NCBI RefSeq assembly: GCF_000384235.1
Contig: NZ_KB913033.1
Span: 751,164 to 815,163 of the forward strand
Length of the DNA stretch: 64,000 nucleotides
Direction: 5' to 3'
Source: Hydrogenovibrio halophilus DSM 15072
GTDB taxonomy: Bacteria > Pseudomonadota > Gammaproteobacteria > Thiomicrospirales > Thiomicrospiraceae
Shown one piece after another: positions 12,367 to 63,174 of the stretch; the stretch's first letter is position 1, and every line of letters begins with the position of its first letter. The notes beneath the pieces are model-generated. The model made no database searches, was not told the DNA's origin, and worked only from the letters and a program-made list of their open reading frames with translations. The translations under genes and the position numbers were made by a program.

Positions 12367-13190
12367 CCAGGCCTGGTCAAAAACAGACTTTGCGTCGCTG
12401 TGACTGGCGATTTCTGATTCTGGCCGGGCTTTTGTTTTCAGGACTGACAGGCACGGTTGTGGCCCAGACCGACCCCTTACTGCACTGGCAGGACAAAACT
12501 TATATCGAACGGTCGTTTTACAAAATTGCGCTCAACAATGAATATGAGAGCGGCCAACAGCCACTGCGACGCTGGGAAGAGCCCATTCGCTATCACCTTC
12601 TGTTTGAAGACCTGCCGAACAATGCGATGGTGCAGACACTGGTCAAAACCCATTTTGACCATCTGGCCGCGATCACGGGCGTGACGATCCGCCCGGTGGA
12701 AACCCAGCGCCAGGCCAACTTTCTGGTGGTGCTGACCCGGGACCGCCACTATCAGAAATCGATCCAAACCCATACCCGAGCACGAGAGCCGGGGTTGCAT
12801 ACCGACAGCCACTGCATGGCCAGCATTCAGGTCAGAGGAGATGGGCGCTTGAGTCAGGCACAGGTCGTGATCCCACTGGACCATGCCATGCAAAGAGGGG
12901 TACTGCCAGCCTGCGTGGTCGAAGAAACGACCCAGGCCATGGGACTGCCCAATGACGCCGACGATGTGACCCCAAGCATTGCCAACGATGCCAGTCGGCT
13001 GGACCTGCTCACGGGACTGGACTATGTGTTTTTGAAACTGCTGTATCATCCGCAATTGCAGGCCGGGATGAGCCAGGCCGCATTGCAGCAACGCCTCCCG
13101 GCCATTCTTGACGAATTCGAACAGCAAGGCCTGATTGAGAACGCGGCGCAGGCCGTGAACCGCAAAGGACTGTACCGTCTGCTTTATTGA
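12363..13190 (+). CDS. Exported DUF2927-family protein
   Basis: 275 residues. N-terminal signal peptide (about 16-34, ends TVVAQ). The core fits DUF2927: [15 protein letters not shown] with the Zn-protease-like EExxQ helix, then [17 protein letters not shown] and [11 protein letters not shown]. Function unknown. Starts in the palindrome, so its first residues are MTRPGQ. Overlaps the uvrA stop by 4 bases and the convergent tcdA by 7. Confidence 0.75.
12364..12379. repeat. ACCAGGCCTGGT palindrome, copy 4
   Basis: TGACCAGGCCTGGTCA followed by AAAA. The first three bases are the uvrA stop and the next gene starts one base earlier. Confidence 0.92.
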
Positions 13191-13918
13191 CCTTCGGTCA
13201 ACGACTGAACGACGTAGCCCGCCAGCATCAGCCCAAAAATACCAGGCATATAGCTGGCCGTGCCATTGACCACACGCCCTCTGGCCCCTTCAATCGTTTC
13301 CATCGGCCCTGGCGGCTTGGGGACTTCTTCCGAAAACACCACTGGAACCCCTTTTTTGATCCCGCGTTTGCGCAAACGCTGCCGGATCTGACGGGCCAGA
13401 CCACAGGAATGGGTCTGAAAAAGATCGGCAATCCGTATCGCACCGGGATCAACCCGACGGCCTGCCCCCATACTGGAAGCAATCGCAACCGGATGCCTCA
13501 CCGCTGCTTCAATCAAAGCCACCTTGCAGTTGAGACTATCAATGGCGTCCACCACGTAATTGGGGGAGACCTCATTCAGCAAATCGCTCATGGCATCGGC
13601 TTCCAGAAAACGGGATTGCGTGACCACCTCACAGTCAGGATTGATGGCCTGAATCCGCTCGGCCATAACCTCGGTTTTCGGTCGTCCCAGGGTATTGGTC
13701 AAAGCCACCAACTGACGATTGAGGTTGGACGCGGACACCCGATCATGGTCAATCAATGTGATTCGACCCACGCCCGCCCGTGCAATGGCTTCGGCGGCGA
13801 AACCACCGACACCACCGACCCCGGCGATCAGCACATGAGAATCTCTCAATGTTTCCAATGCTTCGGGGGAAAACACCAGCGCACTGCGTTCGAACAACCC
13901 TTTCACGGTTTCATTCAT
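13184..13918 (-). CDS. tcdA: tRNA threonylcarbamoyladenosine dehydratase
   Basis: 244 residues of the E1-like ThiF/MoeB fold. Cyclises t6A37 of tRNA to ct6A using ATP. The nucleotide site VLIAGVGGVGGFAAEAIARAG, then LIDHDRVSASNLNRQ and VVDAIDSLNCKVALI are present. Cys in FQTHSCGLARQ corresponds to the CsdE-linked region. Start at MNETVKGLFERSALVF; an upstream extension to 13999 lies within the TatD gene and is not conserved-looking. Overlaps that gene by 8 bases, suggesting coupling. Confidence 0.92.
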   Translation of the reverse strand: MNETVKGLFERSALVFSPEALETLRDSHVLIAGVGGVGGFAAEAIARAGVGRITLIDHDRVSASNLNRQLVALTNTLGRPKTEVMAERIQAINPDCEVVTQSRFLEADAMSDLLNEVSPNYVVDAIDSLNCKVALIEAAVRHPVAIASSMGAGRRVDPGAIRIADLFQTHSCGLARQIRQRLRKRGIKKGVPVVFSEEVPKPPGPMETIEGARGRVVNGTASYMPGIFGLMLAGYVVQSLTEGQ

Positions 13919-14693
13919 AATGATTTGCCTGTTTGAATATTTCACAACTGTTGCGCCAGACCTGCGCTTCAACCGATTCTCTGGAACGGGACAATGCACG
14001 GGAAACCGTTTCCAGCAATTCTGTCAGCTGAGACAGCTGTTGCCGGCAGGCCGGGTCTGCCTCATTTGGCTGTGCGTCCGTTTCCAGCACTATGTGATCG
14101 ACGCCAACGGCTTTCACCGTATCATGGTATCGACGCGCATTCTGGTTGAGGAAAATGGGACCTACCCCAATCAGAAACCCTTCATCAACAAACTGTTTGG
14201 CCATTTCCGGGCCACCAGAAAAGCCGTGCATGACGCCACGAACCGAGGTGTACGCTTCGGATTTGAAAAGGCGCAGCATTTCATTCCAGGCCTTGAAACA
14301 ATGCAGAGAAACAGGCAGATCAAACTGGACCGCCAGTTTTAACTGGGCTTCAAACCACGCCTGTTGCACGCCGAGGTCGGTCTTGTCCGCACGGGCCTTA
14401 TCCAGTCCTATTTCACCCAGCGCTGTAATTTTTTGTTTCTCAACGAGCTGAGACAGCTTTTGCATGGCATCGTCAAGAGTGTCATTGGACTGATCGATAA
14501 ACCAGGGGTGAATGCCAATCGCTGATCGGATTCCAGGGAATCCCTTGGCCATTGCCAATGTCTGAGCGCTGTCTGCCAACGTGGTGCTGACGGCCAAAAA
14601 ACAATCGATTTCAGAATCTGACGTAGGTGTCTGAGCTGGGTGCGTGTTCGAGTCGAAGCACCAGGTGAGGTGGGCGTGGGTATCAAATAACAC
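13911..14693 (-). CDS. TatD-family metal-dependent hydrolase
   Basis: 260 residues. Metal ligands expected for TatD are visible: DTHAHL at the N-terminus, GEIGLD, SLHCFKAW, MHGFSG and the late ETDAQPNE. TatD proteins are Mg-dependent DNases or D-aminoacyl-tRNA-type hydrolases; the substrate here is unknown. The start codon is GTG with no clear Shine-Dalgarno, only about 10 bases after the rplQ terminator T-run, so expression may come from read-through. Confidence 0.82.
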   Translation of the reverse strand: MLFDTHAHLTWCFDSNTHPAQTPTSDSEIDCFLAVSTTLADSAQTLAMAKGFPGIRSAIGIHPWFIDQSNDTLDDAMQKLSQLVEKQKITALGEIGLDKARADKTDLGVQQAWFEAQLKLAVQFDLPVSLHCFKAWNEMLRLFKSEAYTSVRGVMHGFSGGPEMAKQFVDEGFLIGVGPIFLNQNARRYHDTVKAVGVDHIVLETDAQPNEADPACRQQLSQLTELLETVSRALSRSRESVEAQVWRNSCEIFKQANHYE

Positions 14694-50347: not shown

Positions 50348-50764
50348 TTAGGCCTTGGGCGGATGAATGTGATAATCGTGGGTCAGTTCGACGCTGTTTT
50401 CCAGCATTTTGGAGACCGAGCAATACTTTTCCGCTGACAGGTTGACGGCACGAGCGACCTTTTTCTCATTCAGGTCTTCGCCGTAGACGTGAAACCGCAC
50501 GTGAATCCGGGTAAACACTTTGGGGATGGTCTCGGCCCGCTCGCTGGTCAGTTCCACCTCGCAGTCGGTTACGGCCTGTTTGCTTTTTTGCAGCATCATC
50601 ATCACATCAATGCTGGTGCAGCCGCCCAGACCCAACAGCACCATTTCCATGGGTCTGGGCCCTTTGTTTTCACCGCCCACTTCCGGGGCCGCGTCCATCA
50701 CCACCTCATGGCCACTGTCTGTGTGACCGCAAAACCGCATGTTCTTCTGCCAAGTGACTTTCAT
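50348..50764 (-). CDS. OsmC/YhfA-family protein
   Basis: 138 residues. Two redox Cys in GLGGCTSIDVMMM and AEKYCSVSKML, the OsmC peroxidase arrangement, best fitting the YhfA branch. The island begins within its start region: the present upstream sequence has only a poorly spaced AAAGG, while the rejoined empty site gives AAGGAAACGAT before the same ATG. Confidence 0.85.
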   Translation of the reverse strand: MKVTWQKNMRFCGHTDSGHEVVMDAAPEVGGENKGPRPMEMVLLGLGGCTSIDVMMMLQKSKQAVTDCEVELTSERAETIPKVFTRIHVRFHVYGEDLNEKKVARAVNLSAEKYCSVSKMLENSVELTHDYHIHPPKA

Positions 50765-50765
50765 A
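50761..50765. other. Left junction of the island (short core TCATA)
   Basis: Host sequence GACTT-TCATA meets AT-rich island DNA here. TCATA recurs at the start of both 33-bp repeats at 59152 and 61095. Confidence 0.6.
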
Positions 50766-50768
50766 AAT

Positions 50769-50838
50769 TATACAACCTTTGTAAGACTTACATTAAAGCA
50801 AGTAGTTGAAATTATTGACTTACAACCACTGTAAGACT
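50769..50838. repeat. TACAAC...GTAAGA motif pair at the left island end
   Basis: Two copies of TACAAC-N4-TGTAAGACTT-like sequence within 70 bases, adjacent to the junction; related TTACAAC and GTAAGA motifs recur at 59130-59146. Candidate recombinase binding sites. Confidence 0.5.
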
Positions 50839-50868
50839 TTTTCTGTTTTTTCATGGTTATAAAACCCT

Positions 50869-51258
50869 CTAATTTTGATTAATTCTTACAACTTTTTTAC
50901 TGGCCATTTCAGCTTTGAGTTGAGCATTTTCGTTGCTCAAAGTGGCGTTGATGGAGGTCAGCTTGCGAATGTCAGACTCAAGCTGTTCGATATGTTCTCG
51001 AAGCTCTCTGTTCTTAGATTTCTCAAGCTTAAGCTTTTCGATCTTTTCATCCCGTTGAGCTTTATGCTCTTTGCCCATGATTTCACGAACTTCTGCCGCT
51101 ATTTCAGAATAACGATTATGTATGGTGGAATCAGATACACCCGCTTCTTCTGCAAGAGCTGAGATGCTTAATTTTCGCTTTTTATCGACTACCTTAGGGC
51201 GACCATGCTTTAGTCGAATTAGTGCATTAATGATCTCTTTCTCTGTCGATGTACCCAT
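50869..51258 (-). CDS. Small HTH plus coiled-coil protein, possible recombination accessory (TnpC-like)
   Basis: 129 residues from MGTSTEKEIINALIRL (AAAGGAT upstream; a frame to 51330 has no such site). A helix-turn-helix, ISALAEEAGVSDSTIHNRY, occupies about 32-55, followed by a basic heptad-rich coiled coil (LELEKS-type, ELREHIEQLESDIRKLT). Size and layout recall TnpC of Tn554 (about 125 aa), but identity is inferred. Located at the opposite end from the recombinases. Confidence 0.6.
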   Translation of the reverse strand: MGTSTEKEIINALIRLKHGRPKVVDKKRKLSISALAEEAGVSDSTIHNRYSEIAAEVREIMGKEHKAQRDEKIEKLKLEKSKNRELREHIEQLESDIRKLTSINATLSNENAQLKAEMASKKVVRINQN

Positions 51259-51401
51259 TAGGCTTATCCTTTTATAAGGGCGGATAACTTTTTTGCTTAA
51301 GTCAGTTTTTGTGTGGTTTTTAAATAGCATTAAAGTCTATACTTCAAGATAACACTAAAGCTTGTTAGATTGAGTAAACTAATAATAAGCGCTTCTCAAA
51401 C

Positions 51402-52445
51402 TTAACCTTCAAAATAGTTAAGATACTGCTTACGTTTCTGATATTCTAGATTCATCATATATTGCTCCATATATTCAAAATCAGGGCTTTCGTCCTCTTT
51501 GATAGGAAGCATGACTTTATCTCTTGAAATGCGCTTGTCGTTAATCTCTCTGTTAAAGTTATATTTGCCCGACAACCTGTTTGTTAAAGTCGCTATGAAC
51601 AGGTAGATATGGCGGTCGAACTTATCTTTTTGTAAATGAGTCACGTGGTCACTTGCGATAAACGCATATGGATGATAGAAGCTTGAGCCGACGCTACCAC
51701 TGTTTGCTATAGTCAAACACTTTGAGAATATGCGCACACCACTTTCATTTCCAATAAAGTTATCTACCCCATTATTTGATGCTGTTGATGAAATATAAGG
51801 GTGACTACCTTCAGTTTGATTTGCTTTGGTTAAACGTTTTCCACGCTGAACAATTTCAAAAATATCTTTTAGGAAAAACTCATGCCACTCTTTTTCTTCA
51901 AGTTTCTCAATCTTTTTTGGCGTTAGTTTTTCCAACTCTTTACGGCAAAAATCAATATACTTAGCCTTTTTATTTTCCATCAAGGCTTTTGTATAGCTTT
52001 CCATTAATTGCCAGTTTGGTATCCCATCGTCTCCAATTGGTAGCATAACCTTTTGACGTTTTAGCCTACCAGTTCCCATTTTATAACCATAACTGTACTT
52101 TTGGCGTTGCGAAGTTATTTGGCTAGATAGGAAAAAAGCAATATAATCAGATTTAACTTTAGGTCGAAGCTTTCGACAATCGTTAGAAAACAGACCTTGA
52201 TAGGGGTGATAAAATGAGTAGCCTACTGAGCCGTTTCGGTTCACCGAAAGGCAATTACGCTCCAATGTATTATTGTTGTTACCAACAAAATGGCCAATCC
52301 CATTATTTTTAGCTGTGGCGGAAATATAAGGAATTTTCCCTTCAAATCTCTCGGCATCATAAATATCTCTACCAGAAATAATTTCTGCAATATCTTCAAT
52401 AAAAAACTCATGCCATTCAATATCTTCTAGGTTGTTCACCGACAT
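51402..52445 (-). CDS. BcgIB-like DNA specificity subunit
   Basis: 347 residues with two target-recognition domains, each opening WHEFF(I/L)(E/K)DI and containing PYIS(A/S)TA.NNG and SVG.SFYHPY. BcgI-B is about 341 residues with the same two-TRD plan. Directs the fused nuclease-methylase to a bipartite site. ATG is 1 base after the upstream TGA (TGATATG) with GGGAGG upstream. Confidence 0.82.
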   Translation of the reverse strand: MSVNNLEDIEWHEFFIEDIAEIISGRDIYDAERFEGKIPYISATAKNNGIGHFVGNNNNTLERNCLSVNRNGSVGYSFYHPYQGLFSNDCRKLRPKVKSDYIAFFLSSQITSQRQKYSYGYKMGTGRLKRQKVMLPIGDDGIPNWQLMESYTKALMENKKAKYIDFCRKELEKLTPKKIEKLEEKEWHEFFLKDIFEIVQRGKRLTKANQTEGSHPYISSTASNNGVDNFIGNESGVRIFSKCLTIANSGSVGSSFYHPYAFIASDHVTHLQKDKFDRHIYLFIATLTNRLSGKYNFNREINDKRISRDKVMLPIKEDESPDFEYMEQYMMNLEYQKRKQYLNYFEG

Positions 52446-52446
52446 A

Positions 52447-54366
52447 TCAGACCTCCCTAGAATAATCTGATTCAAAAAGATATTCACGATTCTGCATAAT
52501 CATCGAAAATTCAAATGTCAGATAATCACCGATAGTTTTTTCAAAGTCAGCATCACTTGGTAGCTCATCATTGAAGTAATAGAAGCTATGAAGCCATTCA
52601 TCATCTTCTTCAATTGTTGTTTTTACACAGAACTTACTTTCCGCTTCAATACGGTCAAACCAAACATCTAAAAGGTGCTGTTTTCTATCTTTAGCCTGTT
52701 CTGTTTCAATTAGTCCAACATGTGGACTGACTTTAAAGCCATCTTCTCTAAAATCAATGAACTTACATTCTTTGTACTCTGGATGAGGCTCTCCAGCCGT
52801 AAAGATTGCAATGCATGGGATGGTTCCTACGCCATAAAATGTGTCTTTATTGAGCGAAATAACCCCTTCTAAAGTATGTTTCTTTAGGATATTCGCTTTA
52901 ATTGCTTTTTCTTCTCTGGATTTCCCTGTTAAAGAGGATTGCGGGATGATTACAATTGCACGACCACCTTCTACTAATGAATCTAGTAAATGCTCTGTAA
53001 AGGCTATTTCATATAAGTCTGGATTCTTCTTTGAGCCTTGCGAATACGGCGGGTTCATCATTCCAACCGTTGCGCCGTTAAGCTGGATCTTACCAGGGCT
53101 CTCTTTCAGGAAGTTGTGATTGACCAAGTTGGATTTGCCATCACCCCGCAAAATCATGTTCGTGGTAGCAATGGTGAACATGTAGGGTTGCAGCTCCAGC
53201 CCGTGAAGCTGCTTTTGACGAATGTCCTTTTTCTGCTCCTCGGTATCCGCCTTAGCAATCATGTGGTGCATAGCGGCGATGAGAAAGCCCGCTGTTCCCG
53301 CACAAGGATCAAAGACGATATCATCGGGCTGAATATCCAACAATTCACAGAACAGATCCGTTATGTGTTTCGGAGTCAGAACAATGCCGAGGGTTTGGCC
53401 ATCCCCACCCGAGTAGGACATAAACTCGCCGTAGAACCGTCCCAGATAATCCTCGGAAGAGCTAGTGTAGCGAATACTCCTATATATCCGGTGGTTCAAA
53501 AATTCGGTGAAATGCTTCAGAGGGGTCTTGCCGAGCGTGGTATTAATTTCGTTCAGGATTTGAGTATCTTTGATAATCGCAAATTGGCTGAGGATTTTAT
53601 CACGCTTAACATCAGGCCGAACGTTAGAGCGCTTGAGGTTCGATGCAATGGCTTTGAAGATTTTATCGCCATCGGTGCTAACGGTGTCCTCGCCAATCAG
53701 ATCATCAGTGGAAAAGTTTTTATATTCTGACTCCCGAAGGGCTAGCAAAATACCTGATACGACAAGCGGTTTGTCTATATCTTTCAGGTTACCGTAGTTC
53801 CGCAAATCTTCGTGAAGCTCTGCGGCATCCTTCAGGATTTCATGAAGCTCTTTATCGTAATCAGTTTCTTCTTCCAGAATTTCTCTAGTGTAATATTCTT
53901 CGATATTCTCTTCATTGAATGAAATGAAAGATTCTACATCAGGCAATTCTCGGTAGTATTCAGTTTCATCAATGAAAATCGGACTAATATAATGCTGCTT
54001 TTGATCGCCAGATATACCAAAGGCAATGATCTTGTTATAACTCGTATTTTTGGCTAAATGTTTGCCATAAAATAAGGCTCCATTCACGGCGCAGTCTTTT
54101 ACGTCCTTCACAGCCGTGCTGATCGTGTCTCCTTTGGTTCTTTTAACGTGTTTGGCAACGTCCGCTTTGTTTTCAATAATCAACAAGAAATCTTTAACCA
54201 GCCCGACGAATTCGGGGAAACCGACCTTGCCAGATCCAGCCTTTGACGCAGTTTTCAGAGCGTCATTGATTTCTTTGATAGAGCTTCCTTGTGGTTCAAG
54301 TTCAATGTCTGCTTCTGTGAGAAGCCCATAAACCCAGAAATCTGTTTTTGCTTCCTTTTTTGCCAT
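52447..54366 (-). CDS. BcgIA-like fused restriction nuclease / N6-adenine methyltransferase
   Basis: 639 residues. N-terminal PD-(D/E)xK-like module: PE at 51-52 and ENK at 65-67, spaced as in BcgI. The methylase has motif I DPCAGTAGF (353-361) and motif IV NPPY (438-441), type I HsdM-like. BcgI-A is about 637 residues. Expected to cut both sides of its site (type IIB) with the S-like partner. The start is the ATG at MAKKEAK (AGGA upstream), not the earlier GTG. Confidence 0.82.
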   Translation of the reverse strand: MAKKEAKTDFWVYGLLTEADIELEPQGSSIKEINDALKTASKAGSGKVGFPEFVGLVKDFLLIIENKADVAKHVKRTKGDTISTAVKDVKDCAVNGALFYGKHLAKNTSYNKIIAFGISGDQKQHYISPIFIDETEYYRELPDVESFISFNEENIEEYYTREILEEETDYDKELHEILKDAAELHEDLRNYGNLKDIDKPLVVSGILLALRESEYKNFSTDDLIGEDTVSTDGDKIFKAIASNLKRSNVRPDVKRDKILSQFAIIKDTQILNEINTTLGKTPLKHFTEFLNHRIYRSIRYTSSSEDYLGRFYGEFMSYSGGDGQTLGIVLTPKHITDLFCELLDIQPDDIVFDPCAGTAGFLIAAMHHMIAKADTEEQKKDIRQKQLHGLELQPYMFTIATTNMILRGDGKSNLVNHNFLKESPGKIQLNGATVGMMNPPYSQGSKKNPDLYEIAFTEHLLDSLVEGGRAIVIIPQSSLTGKSREEKAIKANILKKHTLEGVISLNKDTFYGVGTIPCIAIFTAGEPHPEYKECKFIDFREDGFKVSPHVGLIETEQAKDRKQHLLDVWFDRIEAESKFCVKTTIEEDDEWLHSFYYFNDELPSDADFEKTIGDYLTFEFSMIMQNREYLFESDYSREV

Positions 54367-54392
54367 TTTTTTCACTTCCTATTCGGACTTAA

Positions 54393-54435
54393 TAGGTTTT
54401 GATAAAATATTTCTAAAAATATTAAGCAAAACCTA
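54393..54435. repeat. Nested 43-bp palindrome ahead of the R-M genes
   Basis: Outer arms TAGGTTTTG / CAAAACCTA, inner arms AATATTT / AAATATT around CTAA. Lies in the 96-base gap between recombinase 3 and the R-M operon; no T-run, so more likely an operator than a terminator. Confidence 0.65.
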
Positions 54436-54462
54436 AATCTTTAAACTGCAACTCAACTGCCC

Positions 54463-56331
54463 TTAAGAAACAAAGTCTTTTACTTCATCCCACATACCAA
54501 GGTCTTTCAATACACGCTCACAGCGCTCAATATCACGCTCTACACGCTGTTTTCCCGCCTCACCAATATCATCTATCTGTCTTAGTTCTAATTGCTGTAT
54601 ATAGATGCCTTTGAAGTATTCACCGTGACGCTTCTTCTCGATAATCGATTCATCACAATCAACGCAAGCCGTTCCCTCAATCACAGAACGTCCACCACAG
54701 CCTGAATTATCAGAGGTACACCATGAATGCCCTGTTGAACGTAAATGAACCGTATCAGAGATGCGTTCAGCCATCGCCGCACGACTATCAAAGGTCTTAA
54801 CCGGTTCGTTGTTTGAACGGTACGAGATTAACTTGTTGGCAAGACCGCCTGTAATAATCGTATCTTCATCTAAAAACTCTTCGACTCGTGCAACCTTGAA
54901 GCTTTTAATCTGTACCGCAATTTCATCGTAGAGTTCTTCGTCCTGCGATTTATTAGCAGCATATAGCAAGGTCATATCCATGCCCCAATGCTTAAAGTGC
55001 TGCTTGAGGTAGCGTAAATCTCCATAAGCCGATTGTGCGACATAGACAGCAAAAGTGCGTCTAAAACGGTGTGCAGTTAATCCCTTAACACCCAATGCAT
55101 TTCCAAAATCTTTTAAACGCTCACTAAACGCAAAATGGCTCAAGGGATTAATCTGATTTCCTTGTTTCATTGAATTAGTTAAGAACAGATGATGTTTGAA
55201 GTTCTCTATTTTTAACCCTCTTGAGTCATGCGGGTCTTGAGCGAACCGTTCAGCTTGTTCTTGCCACAATCTTTGTTGAAAGGATTTTACATAATTTTTT
55301 TGCACTTCAATGGCTTGGACAACGATTTCGGGTACAAGCCATTCGGTGTAGCCCTCATAAGTCTTACTCGAATGGGATTTTAGCCAGTAATAGACTTCAT
55401 CTTGATTATCTTCGACACGGTAGGCATCGATTTGAATCGCACTGAGTTCGTGGATACGAATACCACTGAAGGTTAGGATAATGATTGCCATGGCATCAGG
55501 GATGTCACTATACAAAGCACTAAATCCTTTCAGCCCAGAATAGCCTTTAGGCTTTAAAAATTGTTTGGTAATGGCGGTACCGATACCATTTTGAGAGTTA
55601 ATCTTTTCAGCCAATTTCTCCCGCTCAAGTTCAATCTCTGCTTGAAGCTGTATAAGCTCATTGGCTTGCTCTAAAACCTTGTTGCAGTCATTGATTAATA
55701 CCTTGAGTTCGTCATCAGGAATGACTTGGGTTTTGGCTGTTTTTTTACCTTGAGAATGAGCACCCGCCAAGTAACTTGCCGAACTCTCAACCCATGGGTG
55801 TTCAAACGCCCATTGAGTGCCTTTGAGGTTGTAATACAAGAACTCAATAGCTGAAAATCGATGTGTTAGGGAGATTTTAGATAACGTTTTTTTGGTTTGT
55901 TTCGATACTTCTTGTTTGCACTGGTGGACGTAATTCGCACAGTGCAAAGGGGTAATATTTGATGTGCTTTGCACATTGATATTGTCTAAAAAATTCAAAA
56001 AAGGTTTTAAATCGTTGAATTTTTTTAATATCGTACCACCCGATGGCGTGTGTTTGATGTCGTAGTGTTTTAAGGCAAACTTTACCGCCTCCACAAATTG
56101 ATTTGGAATGGTCTTAAAACGGAGTTTCTTTTTATTATCTGGAGTGTTCGAGGGAAAGCGAGCGTCTTCTAGTCGCCATGTATCATCACCGTATTGGCTG
56201 ATAGCATGATGGGTTCCATCCGTTAACTGATAAGACGACACAGGCAAGGTTTGAAGAACTGAATCTTCAAGTTCATGCAGTTTTTGAGGACGACAATAAT
56301 CGATTGCGCTGATTAGCATTACTTGACTCAT
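54463..56331 (-). CDS. Tyrosine recombinase 3 of a trio
   Basis: 622 residues. Catalytic positions: R in LTFSGIRIHELS, HxxR in TAHRFRRTF, H and Y in KHWGMDMTLLYAA. A Cys cluster near the C-terminus (CTSDNSGCGG ... CVDCDE) may bind zinc. Overlaps recombinase 2 by 4 bases. Family not named with certainty; large size recalls TnpB of Tn554. Confidence 0.82.
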   Translation of the reverse strand: MSQVMLISAIDYCRPQKLHELEDSVLQTLPVSSYQLTDGTHHAISQYGDDTWRLEDARFPSNTPDNKKKLRFKTIPNQFVEAVKFALKHYDIKHTPSGGTILKKFNDLKPFLNFLDNINVQSTSNITPLHCANYVHQCKQEVSKQTKKTLSKISLTHRFSAIEFLYYNLKGTQWAFEHPWVESSASYLAGAHSQGKKTAKTQVIPDDELKVLINDCNKVLEQANELIQLQAEIELEREKLAEKINSQNGIGTAITKQFLKPKGYSGLKGFSALYSDIPDAMAIIILTFSGIRIHELSAIQIDAYRVEDNQDEVYYWLKSHSSKTYEGYTEWLVPEIVVQAIEVQKNYVKSFQQRLWQEQAERFAQDPHDSRGLKIENFKHHLFLTNSMKQGNQINPLSHFAFSERLKDFGNALGVKGLTAHRFRRTFAVYVAQSAYGDLRYLKQHFKHWGMDMTLLYAANKSQDEELYDEIAVQIKSFKVARVEEFLDEDTIITGGLANKLISYRSNNEPVKTFDSRAAMAERISDTVHLRSTGHSWCTSDNSGCGGRSVIEGTACVDCDESIIEKKRHGEYFKGIYIQQLELRQIDDIGEAGKQRVERDIERCERVLKDLGMWDEVKDFVS

Positions 56332-57923
56332 GCGACTTCTTCCAACTGATTACGATGCTTCCATGCAGGGTGCGGATTGGCTTGGGCTTCGGCTTTAATG
56401 TTGGCCACATAGTCGGCATCGAATTGCGGGGCGATGTCTTTATCAATGATACGAATAATATGAGCAAAGTATTTGCTCCAACGCTTTGCGCCAATCTGTC
56501 CACGCTCATAGACAATCAACCAGTAGAACGAGAAGAGGCGATAGAGGTCTTCTTTTGTGACTACCATGTTGCGACAACGCACACAGCTTAAAAAGTTGGT
56601 GCAGTAGATTTTATTGCCGCTCTTGTCAGTACGATTTGGAATATCTGAACACTTTGAAACAGGGGTGTTGTTTTCTATCACCTCTACATTGGAGAGTAGC
56701 TCTTTGGTTCGTACCTTTCCCATGTAATTAAAGTTCTTTTCGGCCTCTTTCGGCGCTTCAAGGTAGTGAGTTTGCGATACTTTTACCGAATGATTCGCTA
56801 AAGCAGCGGTTACAAAAGGGTCTCCACCAGAGAGTTCCCAAATACTGTTTTCAAAGGTTTTTCTGAAACGAGAGACATTGACTTGTAACGGTTCGCCATT
56901 GTCGTTTTTCAGGTCTTTTTCTTTCACCCATTTTTTTGTATTTGTTTTCAGTAAGCTATTTGTGATAGTAGTGATTCCACCATTATTTAAGACTCCGGTG
57001 GTTCGATAAGAAAGCACTAAATCGGTTCCGCTTTCAGCTCGTAAAGACTGGTTCATGTCGATGACGTGCTGAATCATTACAGTGACATCTGCCAGTACCG
57101 TTTGAACATTCTCAACATTGGTTGAGTGACGAAGATTTTGAATGTGGGTTGCATTGCCACGACGTTTATACAGCACCAATAGCTTGCGGTTTTCTTTTAA
57201 TGGATGCTCTTGAATCGAGTCCGTAGTCATTTCCAAAAGTGGCGTGGTATTCATGCCTGAACGCAGTGCTATCGCCAATAAAAAGATAGTTAACTCATAA
57301 CTATTTAATGGCTCGTTTTTTTCAAGAATCTTGTTTACATCGACTTTTAGGGCATGAGCTACACGCTTACGCTCAGCTTTTGAAAACGCAGTTTGACCTT
57401 TCACTTTCCGGTTGGAGTTTGGAAATGGATTCTTTGGGAAATCAAACCGCTCCAACCAGCCCATTCCTTGCATTTTGACCAGAATCGATTTGGTATTAGT
57501 GTATATTGTTTTGGCTGAAGCGCTATTTGGATAATTTGTTTTTAGATTCTGGATATAGTTTTCAATCAACTCAAAAGTAATATCCGATAACACCAATTCA
57601 CGATTCATAGCTTTTGCATAAATTGCCAAATAATGAGCAAAATCTTTAAACCCAGAGTGGCAGTAATGAGAAATGGTTGAAGGCTCCACTAACGACTCAG
57701 AGAGCATGATTTCAATAGTTTGTTGAGCCGCACTGGTAATCGCATCAAAGCCCTGCCTATAATGTTTCTCGAAGTCGTAAGTCCGATAACTCGTAGGATT
57801 CACACCAAGCGAAACAAGTGTATTTTTAGGTATGCCTGTTTTTAAAACAGGTTGGGTGATAACTACCCCATTTCGGTCTGAAACAGATAAAGGGGCTTGA
57901 TTAAAATCTTTACGTTTTTTCAT
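56328..57923 (-). CDS. Tyrosine recombinase 2 of a trio
   Basis: 531 residues. R in IALRSGMNTTPLLEM, RFRK box in NVSRFRKTF where the usual His is replaced, H and Y in LANHSVKVSQTHYLEA. C-terminal Cys cluster CTNFLSCVRC. Overlaps both neighbours by 4 bases (ATGA), so the three are one translationally coupled unit. Confidence 0.82.
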   Translation of the reverse strand: MKKRKDFNQAPLSVSDRNGVVITQPVLKTGIPKNTLVSLGVNPTSYRTYDFEKHYRQGFDAITSAAQQTIEIMLSESLVEPSTISHYCHSGFKDFAHYLAIYAKAMNRELVLSDITFELIENYIQNLKTNYPNSASAKTIYTNTKSILVKMQGMGWLERFDFPKNPFPNSNRKVKGQTAFSKAERKRVAHALKVDVNKILEKNEPLNSYELTIFLLAIALRSGMNTTPLLEMTTDSIQEHPLKENRKLLVLYKRRGNATHIQNLRHSTNVENVQTVLADVTVMIQHVIDMNQSLRAESGTDLVLSYRTTGVLNNGGITTITNSLLKTNTKKWVKEKDLKNDNGEPLQVNVSRFRKTFENSIWELSGGDPFVTAALANHSVKVSQTHYLEAPKEAEKNFNYMGKVRTKELLSNVEVIENNTPVSKCSDIPNRTDKSGNKIYCTNFLSCVRCRNMVVTKEDLYRLFSFYWLIVYERGQIGAKRWSKYFAHIIRIIDKDIAPQFDADYVANIKAEAQANPHPAWKHRNQLEEVA

Positions 57924-59086
57924 GCCACTCCCTCGGACCCAAGGCAGATTTGGTCAATATCCTGGTCGTATTCGGTCATTAAATCGCCTTCCAAATCTTC
58001 GAGATAATGCAGATAAACTTGTGTTGTTAAGATGCTTGAATGACCTAAACGATCTTGGACGTACACCAATGGATCGCCTCGATAATTTGGGTTGTGTCGA
58101 AGTCCATAGAGCTTAAAAGTTGCGTAGGTGTGTCGAAGCTTATGCAGGCTTATTTCTTTTCGACCAACAATTTTTTTCAACTCTGTATTTAGTATCGTGC
58201 CTTTGATGGAATAAGGTTTTGCAAATCGGTTCAACAGCAGAGTTTTTTGCTCGCTGACTTCATTTTTCAACAGTAACTCATTTCGCTCATGCAGCTTGTA
58301 TTGCCACAGTCGTTCATACAGTGATATGGGAATATGAATCGTGCGTTCCTTATTTCCTTTTGTGCCACCCTGACCACTTTTTACTTCCATATCTTTGGTA
58401 CTCAGCACAACAGGCACAATCGCTTTACCCCGCTTCGTTCTTGGGTCTTGGATATAGCTTTCAGGAAAGGTTAGCAATTCCTCTTTGCGCATCCCTGTTT
58501 GTAGGGCTAGACGATAGATTAGATGTTGAGAGATAAAGCATGGATGTGCCATCAGGATTTTGACTTCTTGCTTGGTCAAAACCTGCAATGCCGCCACTTT
58601 TTCTTTCAGCATTACATTGACTGCATTTTTTTGATTACCCGACCTATCCGTATGAGCCAAGAAGCCCTTACCTTTATTGATAATCACAGTCTCAATGTCA
58701 TAGGGTACGGATTCGATCCAATGCTTTCTTTGAGCGAACTCATAAAATTGGATAATGGTTCTTAAACGCCCATTGATCGTCTTTGAGGATAGACCCAAGC
58801 TGACTGACCAATCACGATAAGCAGCAATGACTGAATGTTGAGTGTCGGCCATCTTTGAACGCCAATCCAGTCCATTACCCTCCAAATAACCAAAGTAGTC
58901 ATACAGGTCTTGCCCGTAACGCCACCATGTATTCTTACTCTCGACTCGTCCTCTAGTGATACAGAAGTAAATTAAGAATTGGTGGACTTCAGTCTCCAAC
59001 TCCATTTCTGAATTAACGATTAACGGAAAGTCCTCATAGGAATGACCATGCAGTTTAAAGTCATTCGTTGCTCTTATTAATCTCAT
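57920..59086 (-). CDS. Tyrosine recombinase 1 of a trio
   Basis: 388 residues with a SAM-like N-terminal domain and complete catalytic set: R in LQTGMRKEELLTF, K in the beta-hairpin KGNKERTIHIP, HxxR in LHKLRHTYATF, H in DRLGHSSILTT and Y in QVYLHYLEDL. Start at ATG (GGGAG upstream), preceded in frame by TTG. Promoter overlaps element-end motifs. Confidence 0.88.
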   Translation of the reverse strand: MRLIRATNDFKLHGHSYEDFPLIVNSEMELETEVHQFLIYFCITRGRVESKNTWWRYGQDLYDYFGYLEGNGLDWRSKMADTQHSVIAAYRDWSVSLGLSSKTINGRLRTIIQFYEFAQRKHWIESVPYDIETVIINKGKGFLAHTDRSGNQKNAVNVMLKEKVAALQVLTKQEVKILMAHPCFISQHLIYRLALQTGMRKEELLTFPESYIQDPRTKRGKAIVPVVLSTKDMEVKSGQGGTKGNKERTIHIPISLYERLWQYKLHERNELLLKNEVSEQKTLLLNRFAKPYSIKGTILNTELKKIVGRKEISLHKLRHTYATFKLYGLRHNPNYRGDPLVYVQDRLGHSSILTTQVYLHYLEDLEGDLMTEYDQDIDQICLGSEGVA

Positions 59087-59115
59087 CAAGCCACTCCCGT
59101 TAAGGCAATGGTTTA

Positions 59116-59144
59116 ACTATAAATTAACTGTAAGAGCATTACAA
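59116..59144 (-). promoter_or_regulatory. Promoter of the recombinase operon
   Basis: Minus strand TTGTAA (59139-59144), 17-base spacer, TATAGT (59116-59121). Sits on the TTACAAC/GTAAGA motifs, so recombinase binding could autoregulate it. Confidence 0.6.
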
Positions 59145-59151
59145 CTGCATA

Positions 59152-59184
59152 TCATATCGTTTCCTTCTTATTTGCGTCGCTGCA
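59152..59184. repeat. 33-bp direct repeat, inner copy (att-like)
   Basis: Begins TCATATCGTTTCC and ends TTGCGTCGCTGCA; identical to 61095-61127. Its last 17 bases duplicate the 3' end of the 687-codon gene. Confidence 0.88.
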
Positions 59185-59218
59185 GCCGGACTCATGTAGT
59201 TAACGACTAACATTAAAA

Positions 59219-59860
59219 CTAAACTCGATACTGTCCTAAAGAAGCAGCGTTCTCAATGTCGGTTTTGAACCAACGCAACATACTCAAAACTTCATCAGCC
59301 AAACCTCGAAACCCTTCCGCCTCCACATCTAGGAATTCACCATGAGCAATGTAATTTCGACGATTAAGCAAACTTTCATCAATGAGATTGAACCTAGCTT
59401 CATATTTTTCAGTGTCGATATTTATTGACTTCAATATATTTACAAAAACTTTCGAACTGAGGTTAAATTCAGTTCTTATAGCTGAATCCGCTTTCAACTT
59501 AGCAGTTTCACCAAGCTCATTTAACAAAAACTCGATGGTTTCAATTGATACTTTAGACTGTTTTGATTTCGAAAGATCATTTATCTTCTTCTTCAAACCA
59601 AAGACAATAAAACAGCTAACCAGCTCACGATATTTCAAAGATTGCCCATTAATAAACTCTACATAATGTGTGGCGGTATTTTTTATAAACCCCTCCCAAT
59701 GACCATATAAAAGCGGGATGGCGGCTCTTACCGCAGTACTGCTCGTAATATTATCTGCTCTGCGAACTAATATTTTTAGGCTAGCAATCTCTTTAAAACG
59801 CCAAGAGAGCTCTTGATCTAGCGTGTTCTGGAGTTCATTTATCGTTCTTATTTTACTCAT
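59219..59860 (-). CDS. HEPN-domain RNase candidate (MAE_28990-type)
   Basis: 213 residues, all-helical. The HEPN Rx4H motif is RNYIAH in LNRRNYIAHGEF. Resembles the MAE_28990/MAE_18760 HEPN family, commonly paired with DUF262 proteins. Its ATG overlaps the partner stop (ATGA), suggesting a two-protein system; target RNA is unknown. Confidence 0.78.
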   Translation of the reverse strand: MSKIRTINELQNTLDQELSWRFKEIASLKILVRRADNITSSTAVRAAIPLLYGHWEGFIKNTATHYVEFINGQSLKYRELVSCFIVFGLKKKINDLSKSKQSKVSIETIEFLLNELGETAKLKADSAIRTEFNLSSKVFVNILKSINIDTEKYEARFNLIDESLLNRRNYIAHGEFLDVEAEGFRGLADEVLSMLRWFKTDIENAASLGQYRV

Positions 59861-60960
59861 GGCCTAAAAAAACCTTGGGCCATTGGTAAAAGATTGGTTA
59901 GCCGTGACGTACCTCTAACCCCAGCCCCTGAATTCTTTTCGAATGTAGCGTCAGACCAGAGTTCTTTAGCCTTTCGAACCAACAAGTCTTTTTGCTCATC
60001 AGGAGGTAAACTTTCGTAATCATTAAGATTTTTAGACAAACCAAATGCTATTGTTTCGTACAGAGACATCAAAAATTTTCCGGAAAATGAAGCTCCATCC
60101 CATCTTTTGAAAGCATCACTACCCATCGCATGATTAAGAAGATCAAATGTTTTCTTGAAAACTCTCTTCTCTTCATCCCAGTCGATTTCATCACTTCTTG
60201 AAATCTCGATCAAAGCTTCGTCTAAGTATTCATGGACATCTAATCCTCTAGTGTATGTGTGATTTCGAAAAGCGAAAAAACGAAGAACAAGTTCCATCCC
60301 GACTTGTTTTTCTAATGCAGTACTTGTCTGGTTAGTGGTTGCTTCAAAGGCTTCGTAGTGCGAAAGATCTTTTAATAAATTATAGAATGTTGTATTTATC
60401 ATGACCGCAACACAGTTTCTTACTTCCTGCTCAGATAACTGTGCCCCACCAGTATTGAGTCTTTGGAAAAGCTCATACTTAGCATTCTCATCACTCTCCT
60501 TCAACAAAATTTCGACACGCAACCTTGCACGTTTAACCTGTAACTGCATCGGTCTGTCGATAGCTTCTTGACCTTCTTCCGATACTTGCCAGCGCTTATC
60601 TGCCAAACTAGGGAGAAAATTCGTTCCTTCTAGAACACTTGGTTCAACTTGTCGACCCTCAGAATCTTTGAGAACACCAACAAATTCTAAAATAGTAGAT
60701 AACCTCTGAAGGCCATCTATTAACTCCCATCCACCATCTTCATCTTGAAATACAAATATCGGAGGAATCGGAATACCTAATAGAATCGATTCAATAAACC
60801 GTGTTTTTCTCGTAATATCCCAACGAAAGAGCCTTTGAAATTCTGGATTAATTTTTAATTCATCATCCTTATATAGATTAATAACTTCACCGACAGACAT
60901 ATCATACCCATCAGAAACTATTTCTTTTCGAGCATTTTTAATTTCATCTTCTAATCCCAT
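59857..60960 (-). CDS. DUF262 (ParB/GmrSD-N type) protein
   Basis: 367 residues. N-terminal DUF262 signature: NPEFQRLFRW, ESILLGIPIPPIFVF and the DGxQR box in WELIDGLQRLSTIL, an NTP-dependent nuclease or regulator module as in GmrS. No C-terminal HNH (DUF1524) domain, unlike GmrSD fusions; the HEPN partner may supply the effector. GGAG upstream of ATG. Confidence 0.82.
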   Translation of the reverse strand: MGLEDEIKNARKEIVSDGYDMSVGEVINLYKDDELKINPEFQRLFRWDITRKTRFIESILLGIPIPPIFVFQDEDGGWELIDGLQRLSTILEFVGVLKDSEGRQVEPSVLEGTNFLPSLADKRWQVSEEGQEAIDRPMQLQVKRARLRVEILLKESDENAKYELFQRLNTGGAQLSEQEVRNCVAVMINTTFYNLLKDLSHYEAFEATTNQTSTALEKQVGMELVLRFFAFRNHTYTRGLDVHEYLDEALIEISRSDEIDWDEEKRVFKKTFDLLNHAMGSDAFKRWDGASFSGKFLMSLYETIAFGLSKNLNDYESLPPDEQKDLLVRKAKELWSDATFEKNSGAGVRGTSRLTNLLPMAQGFFRP

Positions 60961-61094: not shown

Positions 61095-61127
61095 TCATAT
61101 CGTTTCCTTCTTATTTGCGTCGCTGCA
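61095..61127. repeat. 33-bp direct repeat, outer copy / right island junction
   Basis: Identical to 59152-59184. Includes the stop and final codons of the 687-codon gene and the ancestral intergenic sequence. Confidence 0.88.
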
Positions 61128-63174
61128 ACAGGGTTTCCACCAGAAAATAGACAATGATCAGTGCCATCAGCCCCACGGTGATTTCGATTTCCAGAAACGG
61201 CGGCAGTGACACGCCCGAGCCTTTGAGCATGCCAAACAAATCGCTGAGGGCCGAGACCGACAGCAACACCCCCACCACGCCCATCACCAGATTCATCCGT
61301 TCGCTGGCCTGCTGCTGAATTTTGTCCACCGCCAGGTGAACCCGCTCCTGCAACCAGCCAATGGTTTCCCGCGATTCGGCCAGAATCGCCTGCAGCCGAG
61401 TTTGTTGTGCGTTCACGCCCACGGCCTGAAACAGGGTCTGAATAAACCGATTGTGATCGGGAAAGCGCATCAATCCCCCCGAATCCATGAGATGCACCAG
61501 CTTTTTCACCTCCTGATTGAGGTCGTGCAACTGGCGAATTTGCGCGCGATAGGCATCGGCCTGGGCGCGTAATTGACTGGGGCGGACATCACTCAATGAC
61601 GAATCGTCAAACGGCCTGGCCTGATAGCGCTGCAACCGCTCAAACAACAGCTGATGCAATTGCTGAAAATAATAGCGGGCACTGGTGGCCACCTGCACAT
61701 TCTCCAGCGCCTGATCGGTGACCCAGCTGGGCTGGTCGAGCATCACCAACAGCGCAAAATGGCCATCGGCCTGAACCCAGTTGTGCTGGTGATACAGGTC
61801 TGCCCCCAGGTTCCCCACCCCGGCATGGGGTTGCTGCAAGCGCCAGTTTTCAAAATGACTGCGTACTTCGCGTGGTGGCGTGGTCAGACCCTGCCAGTCG
61901 CCGTGCGCCTGAGCCTGGGCAAAACTCAAAGGCCGCTGGGACTGAGGCGTGCAGAATTGTTCGATCAGCACACTGGTGGCGACGTGTTCACTGGTATTGG
62001 CCTGCAATGCCTGCGCATGCCCCAACCAGTCTCTGATCGTCGCGAACACTTCGTCGGCGATCTCGCGCAAATAGGCATAGGCGTGATCGCGCCAATCCAT
62101 CCGCTCGTCCACCGCGTTTTCCAGCGGCAGGTTGTTCAGATGCCGCAACGCATTGACGTCCATGCCGTCCAGATCGGTCTGCAACAGACACTGCACACTG
62201 CCCAGATTGTTCAAGCGCACCGACAGCGCCAGCGTCAAGGCCTCGCCTCTGAAATCGGAAACGCGGACCGAAGGCAGGTCAAACTGCCACAGACGAAACG
62301 GGTCGGACAGAGACAGGTCCGACAACACATCGGCCGGTTCCGGTTGGTAAAACGCTTCCGCCCCCAGTGCCTGCTCCAGCAAAAGGCGTTTGGGCGCGTC
62401 CTGCAAAAAACCCGACAGACAATCCACCGACAAGGCATTCAGGGTGGCATAAAAAGCCGTGCTCCATTGCCCCGAATGAATCACCAGTTTGTCGGTGGAG
62501 GGCTGACGCAAGATGGCCACGCTGGCCCAGTGCGCCCTGAGCATGGAGGCAAACACGCGTTGCGACCGGTTTTTTAACCAGGCCTGGTACAAATCGGATT
62601 CGACCTGATCCCAATCGGCTTCCGACACCCCCTGGCCCTGATCGCGTCGCTGCAGGGTTTCACTGAGCACGAGCATGGCCTGCAGGTAAGCCTGCCAGGC
62701 ACTCAGTTGCGATTGGCAGGCCGCCGTTTCGGCCAACCAGCTCAGTTGCTCACGGCAGGCGTCGGCGCACTGGGCAAAGGCATTGTTGTGCATGCCGCGA
62801 TCCACATCCACCGAGGCCACAGCCAGCTGATGATGCAGACACACACAGTCCTGTGGCCGCAAAGCCGCATCCCACACCTGTGCCAGACACTGTTCGCCCC
62901 AAGCAAACAGGGCTTTGGCGTCAATAAAATCATAACTTTGTTCAATCTTCAGGCGCGCGCCGAAATAAGCCAGCCAGTAGGCGGCGACCAGCGCTTCGTC
63001 CGAGCCGGACAGGTTGGCCATTTGCTCGACCTGCGGCCGCTGATGCGCCGAGTCCACAGAACAGCCCAACGCCTGCAGACGCGCCTGCATCTGCTCGCGC
63101 CCGACTTCAAACGCTTCGTCCTGATCCAGACGCTGGCCCAGTTCGTTGACGTTCCCCCGTTCATGAACGCTCAT
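61111..63174 (-). CDS. Large uncharacterised membrane-anchored protein
   Basis: 687 residues; family not recognised. Mostly helical soluble body; the last 65 residues hold two membrane segments (MGVVGVLLSVSALSDLFGML and VGLMALIIVYFLVETLL), preceded by a coiled-coil-like stretch. Layout resembles a tail-anchored CorA-like shape but no GxN motif is seen. Overlaps the GNAT gene by 4 bases. Contains palindrome copy 8 near residue 200. Confidence 0.7.
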   Translation of the reverse strand: MSVHERGNVNELGQRLDQDEAFEVGREQMQARLQALGCSVDSAHQRPQVEQMANLSGSDEALVAAYWLAYFGARLKIEQSYDFIDAKALFAWGEQCLAQVWDAALRPQDCVCLHHQLAVASVDVDRGMHNNAFAQCADACREQLSWLAETAACQSQLSAWQAYLQAMLVLSETLQRRDQGQGVSEADWDQVESDLYQAWLKNRSQRVFASMLRAHWASVAILRQPSTDKLVIHSGQWSTAFYATLNALSVDCLSGFLQDAPKRLLLEQALGAEAFYQPEPADVLSDLSLSDPFRLWQFDLPSVRVSDFRGEALTLALSVRLNNLGSVQCLLQTDLDGMDVNALRHLNNLPLENAVDERMDWRDHAYAYLREIADEVFATIRDWLGHAQALQANTSEHVATSVLIEQFCTPQSQRPLSFAQAQAHGDWQGLTTPPREVRSHFENWRLQQPHAGVGNLGADLYHQHNWVQADGHFALLVMLDQPSWVTDQALENVQVATSARYYFQQLHQLLFERLQRYQARPFDDSSLSDVRPSQLRAQADAYRAQIRQLHDLNQEVKKLVHLMDSGGLMRFPDHNRFIQTLFQAVGVNAQQTRLQAILAESRETIGWLQERVHLAVDKIQQQASERMNLVMGVVGVLLSVSALSDLFGMLKGSGVSLPPFLEIEITVGLMALIIVYFLVETLLQRRK
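62577..62588. repeat. ACCAGGCCTGGT palindrome, copy 8 (in a gene)
   Basis: T-run on the left. On the minus strand codes YQAW within LYQAWLKNRS. Confidence 0.9.

Follow-up and report, generated by a model that had tools for sequence, protein, structure and literature searches.

A tyrosine recombinase triad in Hydrogenovibrio halophilus as the core of a small SE/GInt-class integrative element with restriction genes between its third and fourth core genes

Three tyrosine recombinase genes of unequal length lie in a row in the genome of Hydrogenovibrio halophilus DSM 15072, and they raise the question of which kind of mobile element they belong to. We analyzed a 64,000-nucleotide stretch that contains them (NCBI RefSeq assembly GCF_000384235.1, contig NZ_KB913033.1, positions 751,164 to 815,163 of the forward strand), which we call the window and in which positions are counted from the first letter. 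An earlier note had described three overlapping recombinases of increasing size (388, 531, and 622 aa), each start overlapping the previous stop by ATGA, had likened them to recombinase-in-trio (RIT) elements, Tn554, and the gamma-mobile trio, and had concluded that they fit no one described group exactly. The genes read as described, on the minus strand at 57920-59086, 56328-57923, and 54463-56331, and both overlaps are ATGA. The span given for them, 54463-59086, holds as the recombinase operon; the element to which they belong is wider, 50765-59152. On sequence grounds, the triad is the core of a small integrative element of the class that comprises SE (intA-tfp-intB-srap; PMC10214605, PMC9345347) and GInt (ginABCD; PMC5385486). 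This type of element is already known, and its unusual feature here is that the cargo lies between core genes three and four.

The limits of the element follow from ends that are shared across four copies, and they vary in their exact position with the side on which the ATG is counted. Six genes lie within these limits, none of them a transfer gene, and all four core ORFs are open. The features are as follows.

50765-59152, minus strand: whole integrative element, 8,388 bp, ends from the four-copy comparison
59153-59155, minus strand: host ATG at the left junction, in the 6-bp core GATATG at 59153-59158
59152, minus strand: intA end of the element, from the four-copy comparison of ends
57920-59086, minus strand: IntA, tyrosine recombinase, 388 aa, with complete R200-H315-R318-H349-Y358
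56328-57923, minus strand: Tfp-like degenerate tyrosine recombinase, 531 aa, from its active-site residues, C-terminal Cys cluster, and weak Cre/Xer fold match
54463-56331, minus strand: IntB, tyrosine recombinase, 622 aa, with R292-H421-R424-H448-Y457 and C538/C545/C556/C559
52447-54375, minus strand: cargo, BcgI-A-like restriction-methyltransferase subunit, 642 aa (Pfam N6_Mtase; PADLOC REase_MTase_IIG, E = 4.6e-171)
51402-52487, minus strand: cargo, specificity subunit, 361 aa, two target-recognition domains (Pfam Methylase_S in two stretches; PADLOC Specificity_II)
50869-51258, minus strand: fourth core gene, Srap/GinD/TnpC-like, helix-turn-helix (HTH) and coiled coil, displaced behind the cargo; a longer ORF extends to 51330
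50765, minus strand: right end of the element, from the four-copy comparison of ends
50762-50764, minus strand: osmC ATG at the right junction, in the 6-bp core TTTATG at 50762-50767

IntA and IntB have the complete active sites listed above. The second protein, which according to the earlier note lacks the His of HxxR, indeed has Ser351 in its place (the motif reads SRFR) and, in addition, Asn225 in place of the first catalytic Arg; it retains K253, R354, and Y387. Asn225 and these three residues are invariant in 28 of 28 aligned sequences, and the Cys clusters that had been seen at two C termini, C425/C441/C447/C450 in the second protein and the cluster listed above in IntB, are likewise invariant across 28 sequences. 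These 28-row Tfp and IntB alignments consist of the window and 27 of 80 genome loci, the best 80 of 181 relatives; the protein sets omit locus L055 of Agrobacterium, which has no annotated first recombinase ahead of the second, as well as L139 and L154, and L140 and L141 were brought in only at a later stage. The Pfam integrase domain occurs in IntA, lies slightly under the cut-off in IntB, and was not found in the second protein. A search of solved structures with a model of IntB (pLDDT 81.9) gave XerA, the integron integrase, and Cre as matches (best E = 1.6e-7); the model of the second protein is poor (pLDDT 73.2, below 50 for residues 355 to 391), with weak Cre/Xer matches (best E = 3.7e-4). 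By its residues, the second protein is a degenerate tyrosine recombinase. Among viral contigs, the Tfp alignment produced 234 pattern matches, 0 of which were confirmed.

The TnpC-like protein noted at the far end corresponds by homology to the product of the fourth core gene in related elements. Its ORF (50869-51330) encodes 153 aa, and an AAGGA stretch and the relatives favor a start at 51258. Small proteins encoded immediately after intB on plasmids of Vibrio, Methylophaga, and Marinobacter match the window protein at 45 to 49% identity across ~80% of the length of the latter. In a genome search with the IntB alignment, the fourth gene adjoined intB in 76 of 80 loci (the best 80 of 181), including both Thiomicrospira microaerophila copies, in which it overlaps the end of intB; it lay elsewhere in two loci (Thiomicrospira sp. 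WB1, and L106 with a gap of ~0.5 kb), was not found in one (L069), and was out of range in one (L133). In the window it lies 3.2 kb from intB, behind the cargo and uncoupled from intB, and has its own ribosome-site-like AAAGGA. Searched with an alignment of the fourth protein, 369 genomes of the class yielded it in four, the window genome included. A DUF6262 label (21.4 bits versus a Pfam cut-off of 29) is below threshold and serves as a hint only.

The cargo is a restriction system that we take to be BcgI-like. It sits between intB and the fourth gene, with the same junctions, in both the window and Thiomicrospira sp. WB1, and the two T. microaerophila copies are without it. In the window the system is split into a 642-aa methyltransferase-nuclease and a 361-aa specificity protein with two domains, whereas in WB1 (11866-14480 of locus L058, corresponding to 51402-54375 of the window) it is fused into one 816-aa frame with one recognition domain. 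It is possible that the split and fused forms reflect switching of the recognition sequence. Because the fourth gene is next to intB in 76 of the best 80 of 181 loci and the cargo separates them in the window and WB1, the window layout appears to be derived; within this sample, separation of the fourth gene from intB by cargo is a derived state of one small clade.

Comparison of the four copies, which occupy four loci in three genomes, defines the ends. The window genome has a single copy, WB1 has one (L058, genome G008), and T. microaerophila ASL8-2 has two (L059 and L061, genome G054), the two sites of the latter having been pieced together from four separate contigs on the basis of reading frame. 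In the orientation that puts intA first, the window has the left core GATATG, WB1 has GTTATG, and T. microaerophila has TTTATG and GAAATG; ATATGCAGTTGTAAT follows in each case. The right end is GGTTGTATAATTTATG in all four copies, with host sequence beyond it, and the right cores are all TTTATG. The element therefore has an ATG on both sides, and the core is NNNATG at each of the four sites. Compared by eye, the ends (ATATGCAG.. and, as the reverse complement, TTATACAA..) look imperfectly inverted beside these 6-bp cores. A 6,239-bp contig of Spongiibacter pelagi begins at an ATG and finishes in GGTTGTATAAA, as though breakage had occurred at these ends. Inside the left end, at 59134-59137, a 4-nt spacer between TTGTAAT and TTACA varies by lineage (GCTC, AGGC, AATC), with both of its sides conserved. 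A right-end-like stretch, 73% identical over 98 bp and without a Tfp match, occurs in another genome of the genus of T. microaerophila (L044, G055:C1:616171-616268) and is probably a decayed copy.

When the flanks are joined across the element, they restore the start codon of osmC in the window, of a lipoprotein-like gene in WB1, and of aroC in T. microaerophila, each behind a purine-rich stretch; at the second T. microaerophila site they give an open dUTPase-like frame that the element cuts in its middle. The target names were read off the translations rather than taken from a database search. Insertion is in the sense of the target gene at all four sites, and since one of the four insertions is inside a gene, the preference for start codons amounts to three cases only. 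Sister sites are empty in both directions: the osmC locus of WB1 lacks the element, and its alignment with what lies beyond the island in the window resumes 38 bp past osmC; the window genome is empty at its counterpart of the WB1 site, where the start codon is GTG. In other lineages, an ATG lies within a few bases of the left boundary in 15 of 56 loci versus 4.2 expected, by a crude test in which related rows are not independent and many boundaries may mark divergence instead of a true end; under a stricter choice of partners the counts were 10 of 48 (3.6 expected), 6 of 38 (2.8 expected), and 9 of 28 (2.3 expected). Neither start codons nor ATG are mentioned in the main texts of PMC10214605 and PMC5385486, and ATG appears in the available text of PMC9345347 only in a primer. 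A scan for consensus promoters gave one site at the left end versus 0.6 expected by chance and no site at the right end.

The window and WB1 elements, which occupy different loci, are 95.2% identical over 6,654 bp and 86.2% identical over 1,159 bp, with ~0.6 kb of the specificity gene unaligned; intA, tfp, and the fourth gene are 98 to 99% identical. The chromosome adjoining the window copy is 80.6 to 82.9% identical to WB1. An element 95% identical over most of its length, against 81 to 83% for the chromosome, points to recent transfer between the two lineages.

The DNA next to the intA end holds further genes. A HEPN gene and a GmrSD/DUF262 gene (59219-60960) lie between 38-nt direct repeats (59152-59189 and 61095-61132; 36 of 38 positions identical) that contain the 3' end of a 687-aa gene and a ribosome-site/ATG stretch like that of osmC, and this segment is a second, separate insertion beside the element. 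The DUF262 protein is NsnA-like and PD-T4-2-like in PADLOC and has a match at E = 1e-40 in 1 of 61 other genomes of the order. The 687-aa protein (61111-63174), which adjoins the island, has a hydrophobic tail and host-like G+C content; a search of 10 further genomes of the genus gave no match to it at E = 1e-5.

To place the element within its class, profiles from ten members of its lineage (window included) were run against the proteins of SE-6283 and SE-6945. The IntA profile reached both (E = 3.1e-28 and 4.8e-26, respectively), as did the IntB profile (E = 1e-21 and 2.2e-19). The Tfp profile reached the SE-6945 Tfp weakly (E = 2.9e-5) and the fourth-gene profile reached the SE-6945 Srap marginally (E = 0.043); neither detected its counterpart in SE-6283. 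In an IntB tree (a quick method, with long branches), the window groups with WB1, T. microaerophila, and Spongiibacter (SH-aLRT 100). This group is nested in a large clade that also contains elements from Pseudomonas, Marinobacter, and Burkholderiales and elements on plasmids; the SE references fall outside that clade. Among the best 80 of 181 loci, the hosts of the relatives are Gamma- and Betaproteobacteria. One relative, on Vibrio plasmid pVb1796 (L008), has the same four genes (annotated int/tfp/int/TetR) beside blaVMB-1, with protein 3 38% and protein 2 41% identical over >90% of length; it differs in that its fourth gene overlaps the end of intB and further genes come after the fourth. 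Related elements at L050, L051, L115, and L141 lie next to or within genes of the umuD/umuC type, on plasmids as well as chromosomes (L115 read from translation). Plasmid pBT2436 did not help to connect the lineage with a published SE: the stretch examined has a matching element followed by mer genes and shows neither of the protein identifiers given for SE-PaeBT2436.

We leave the choice between the names SE and GInt open, since the gene order is of the SE type, both reference SEs are far removed from the lineage in sequence, and GInt was compared by its published description. The earlier view that no described group fits thus stands for the cargo position and fails for the architecture, which SE (PMC10214605) and GInt (PMC5385486), as described, share. 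That the element is a true SE is slightly less likely than not. As an SE it would move by copy-out, exchanging a single strand; it would take 6 bp from the flank on the left of the donor site, place them on the right of the new site, and leave no empty donor site. Like an SE it has overlapping intA-tfp-intB genes in the order catalytic, degenerate, catalytic, together with a small fourth protein, with RHRY complete in IntA and IntB and incomplete in the second protein, and it has no transfer gene. SEs are described as having 13- to 19-bp imperfect inverted ends and a 6-bp spacer exchange (PMC10214605); the window element has a 6-bp core beside ends that, by eye, look imperfectly inverted. In T. 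microaerophila, TTTATG stands to the left of the aroC copy and to the right of the dut copy, the pattern expected of copy-out from aroC to dut, but TTTATG is the right core of all four copies, as it would equally be if the element encoded it. The sequence distance from SE-6945 and SE-6283, above all in Tfp, weighs against a true SE, and the second protein, keeping R354 and Y387, is less degenerate than the SE Tfp as described. The small gene directly follows intB in both reference elements, in contrast to the window, where the cargo intervenes. The lineage also occurs in Betaproteobacteria, and this element in a Thiomicrospira relative, whereas the SE survey found none in Betaproteobacteria or in Thiotrichales (PMC10214605). 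A GInt by the published definition, with cut-and-paste movement through the 6-nt staggered cuts proposed for that group, is a possibility we regard with some doubt. Three recombinases with a small essential fourth protein are common to both, restriction-modification systems are described as frequent GInt cargo (PMC5385486), and the Gamma- and Betaproteobacterial hosts of the relatives fit the GInt range as given in PMC10214605. However, in the description of ginABCD the protein without the first Arg is GinC, the third rather than the second, and the cargo begins at the ginD end, after a contiguous four-gene operon, rather than ahead of the fourth gene (PMC5385486); the window element measures 8.4 kb versus a GInt median of 34.9 kb (PMC10214605). 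A scan for neighboring ABC transporters, meant to recognize GInts, returned nothing.

RIT recombinase genes overlap, and so do the three in the window, which also has one ordinary and one large recombinase and a TnpC-like protein, as would a Tn554-type transposon. We nevertheless consider a RIT element or a Tn554-type transposon very improbable. The published RIT elements have three tyrosine recombinase genes in a row, but their proteins are 315 to 410 aa long, all with the catalytic Tyr, and they consist of three coding regions only, with 34-bp inverted ends; the window proteins reach 622 aa, the second is degenerate, and there is a fourth gene. Tn554, for all the likeness of its two recombinases, small protein, and 6-bp footprint, is described as lacking the middle protein that in the window is 531 aa long (both from the descriptions in PMC10214605). 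For the gamma-mobile trio, GmtX, GmtY, and GmtZ gave no NCBIfam match at E = 0.1, in a collection that may not include these models. It is also unlikely that the element is a decayed, immobile island retained for its restriction system. The single copy in the window genome and the uncoupled fourth gene would suit such an island, but all four core ORFs are open, and the 98 to 99% identity of the core genes at another locus in WB1, against 81 to 83% for the chromosome, argues for recent movement of the present form, cargo included.

We consider it highly probable that the three recombinases drive the recombination of a self-contained SE/GInt-class element with an NNNATG core, start-codon insertion, and presumably BcgI-like cargo. 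In the mechanism that we propose, IntA and IntB would cut and join DNA at the 6-bp core, and the degenerate second recombinase would bind the ends without full catalysis and shape the synapse together with the small HTH/coiled-coil protein, which would itself assist by binding the ends. The two ends would be joined into a circle that inserts at a further NNNATG site, with a preference for start codons and for the direction of the target gene. The restriction-modification system would have entered between intB and the fourth gene in an ancestor common to the window and WB1 elements. All four core proteins are likely needed, by analogy with published deletion experiments in which intA, intB, and srap of SE-6283 were required and a tfp deletion was not obtainable (PMC10214605) and in which all four gin genes of GInt were required (PMC5385486). 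Plasmid-supplied srap restored circle formation in the SE experiments (PMC10214605), which fits a fourth gene that is uncoupled in the window.

More tentatively, and as something that may well not hold, the element could be specialized for start codons. Its core would be the host ATG, whose asymmetry would fix the sense of insertion; the host promoter and ribosome-binding site would lead into the recombinase operon, the far end would give the gene its ATG back, and the restriction-modification system inside the recombination operon would act as an addiction module. With insertion at a start codon in the sense of the gene, the gene would keep an ATG and the host promoter could read through the element. 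Because an asymmetric core would always place the element in the sense of its ATG target, a host transcript could cross the whole element, in the order recombinase operon, restriction genes, fourth gene, and target gene.

SE and GInt elements are described as carrying drug-resistance, toxin-biosynthesis, and restriction genes (PMC10214605, PMC5385486). The lineage described here offers sharp ends, an ATG-bearing 6-bp core at four of four sites, cargo-free relatives, and a naturally uncoupled fourth gene, so that one can test directly how the core is used, whether the fourth gene must be coupled, and what the degenerate recombinase does.
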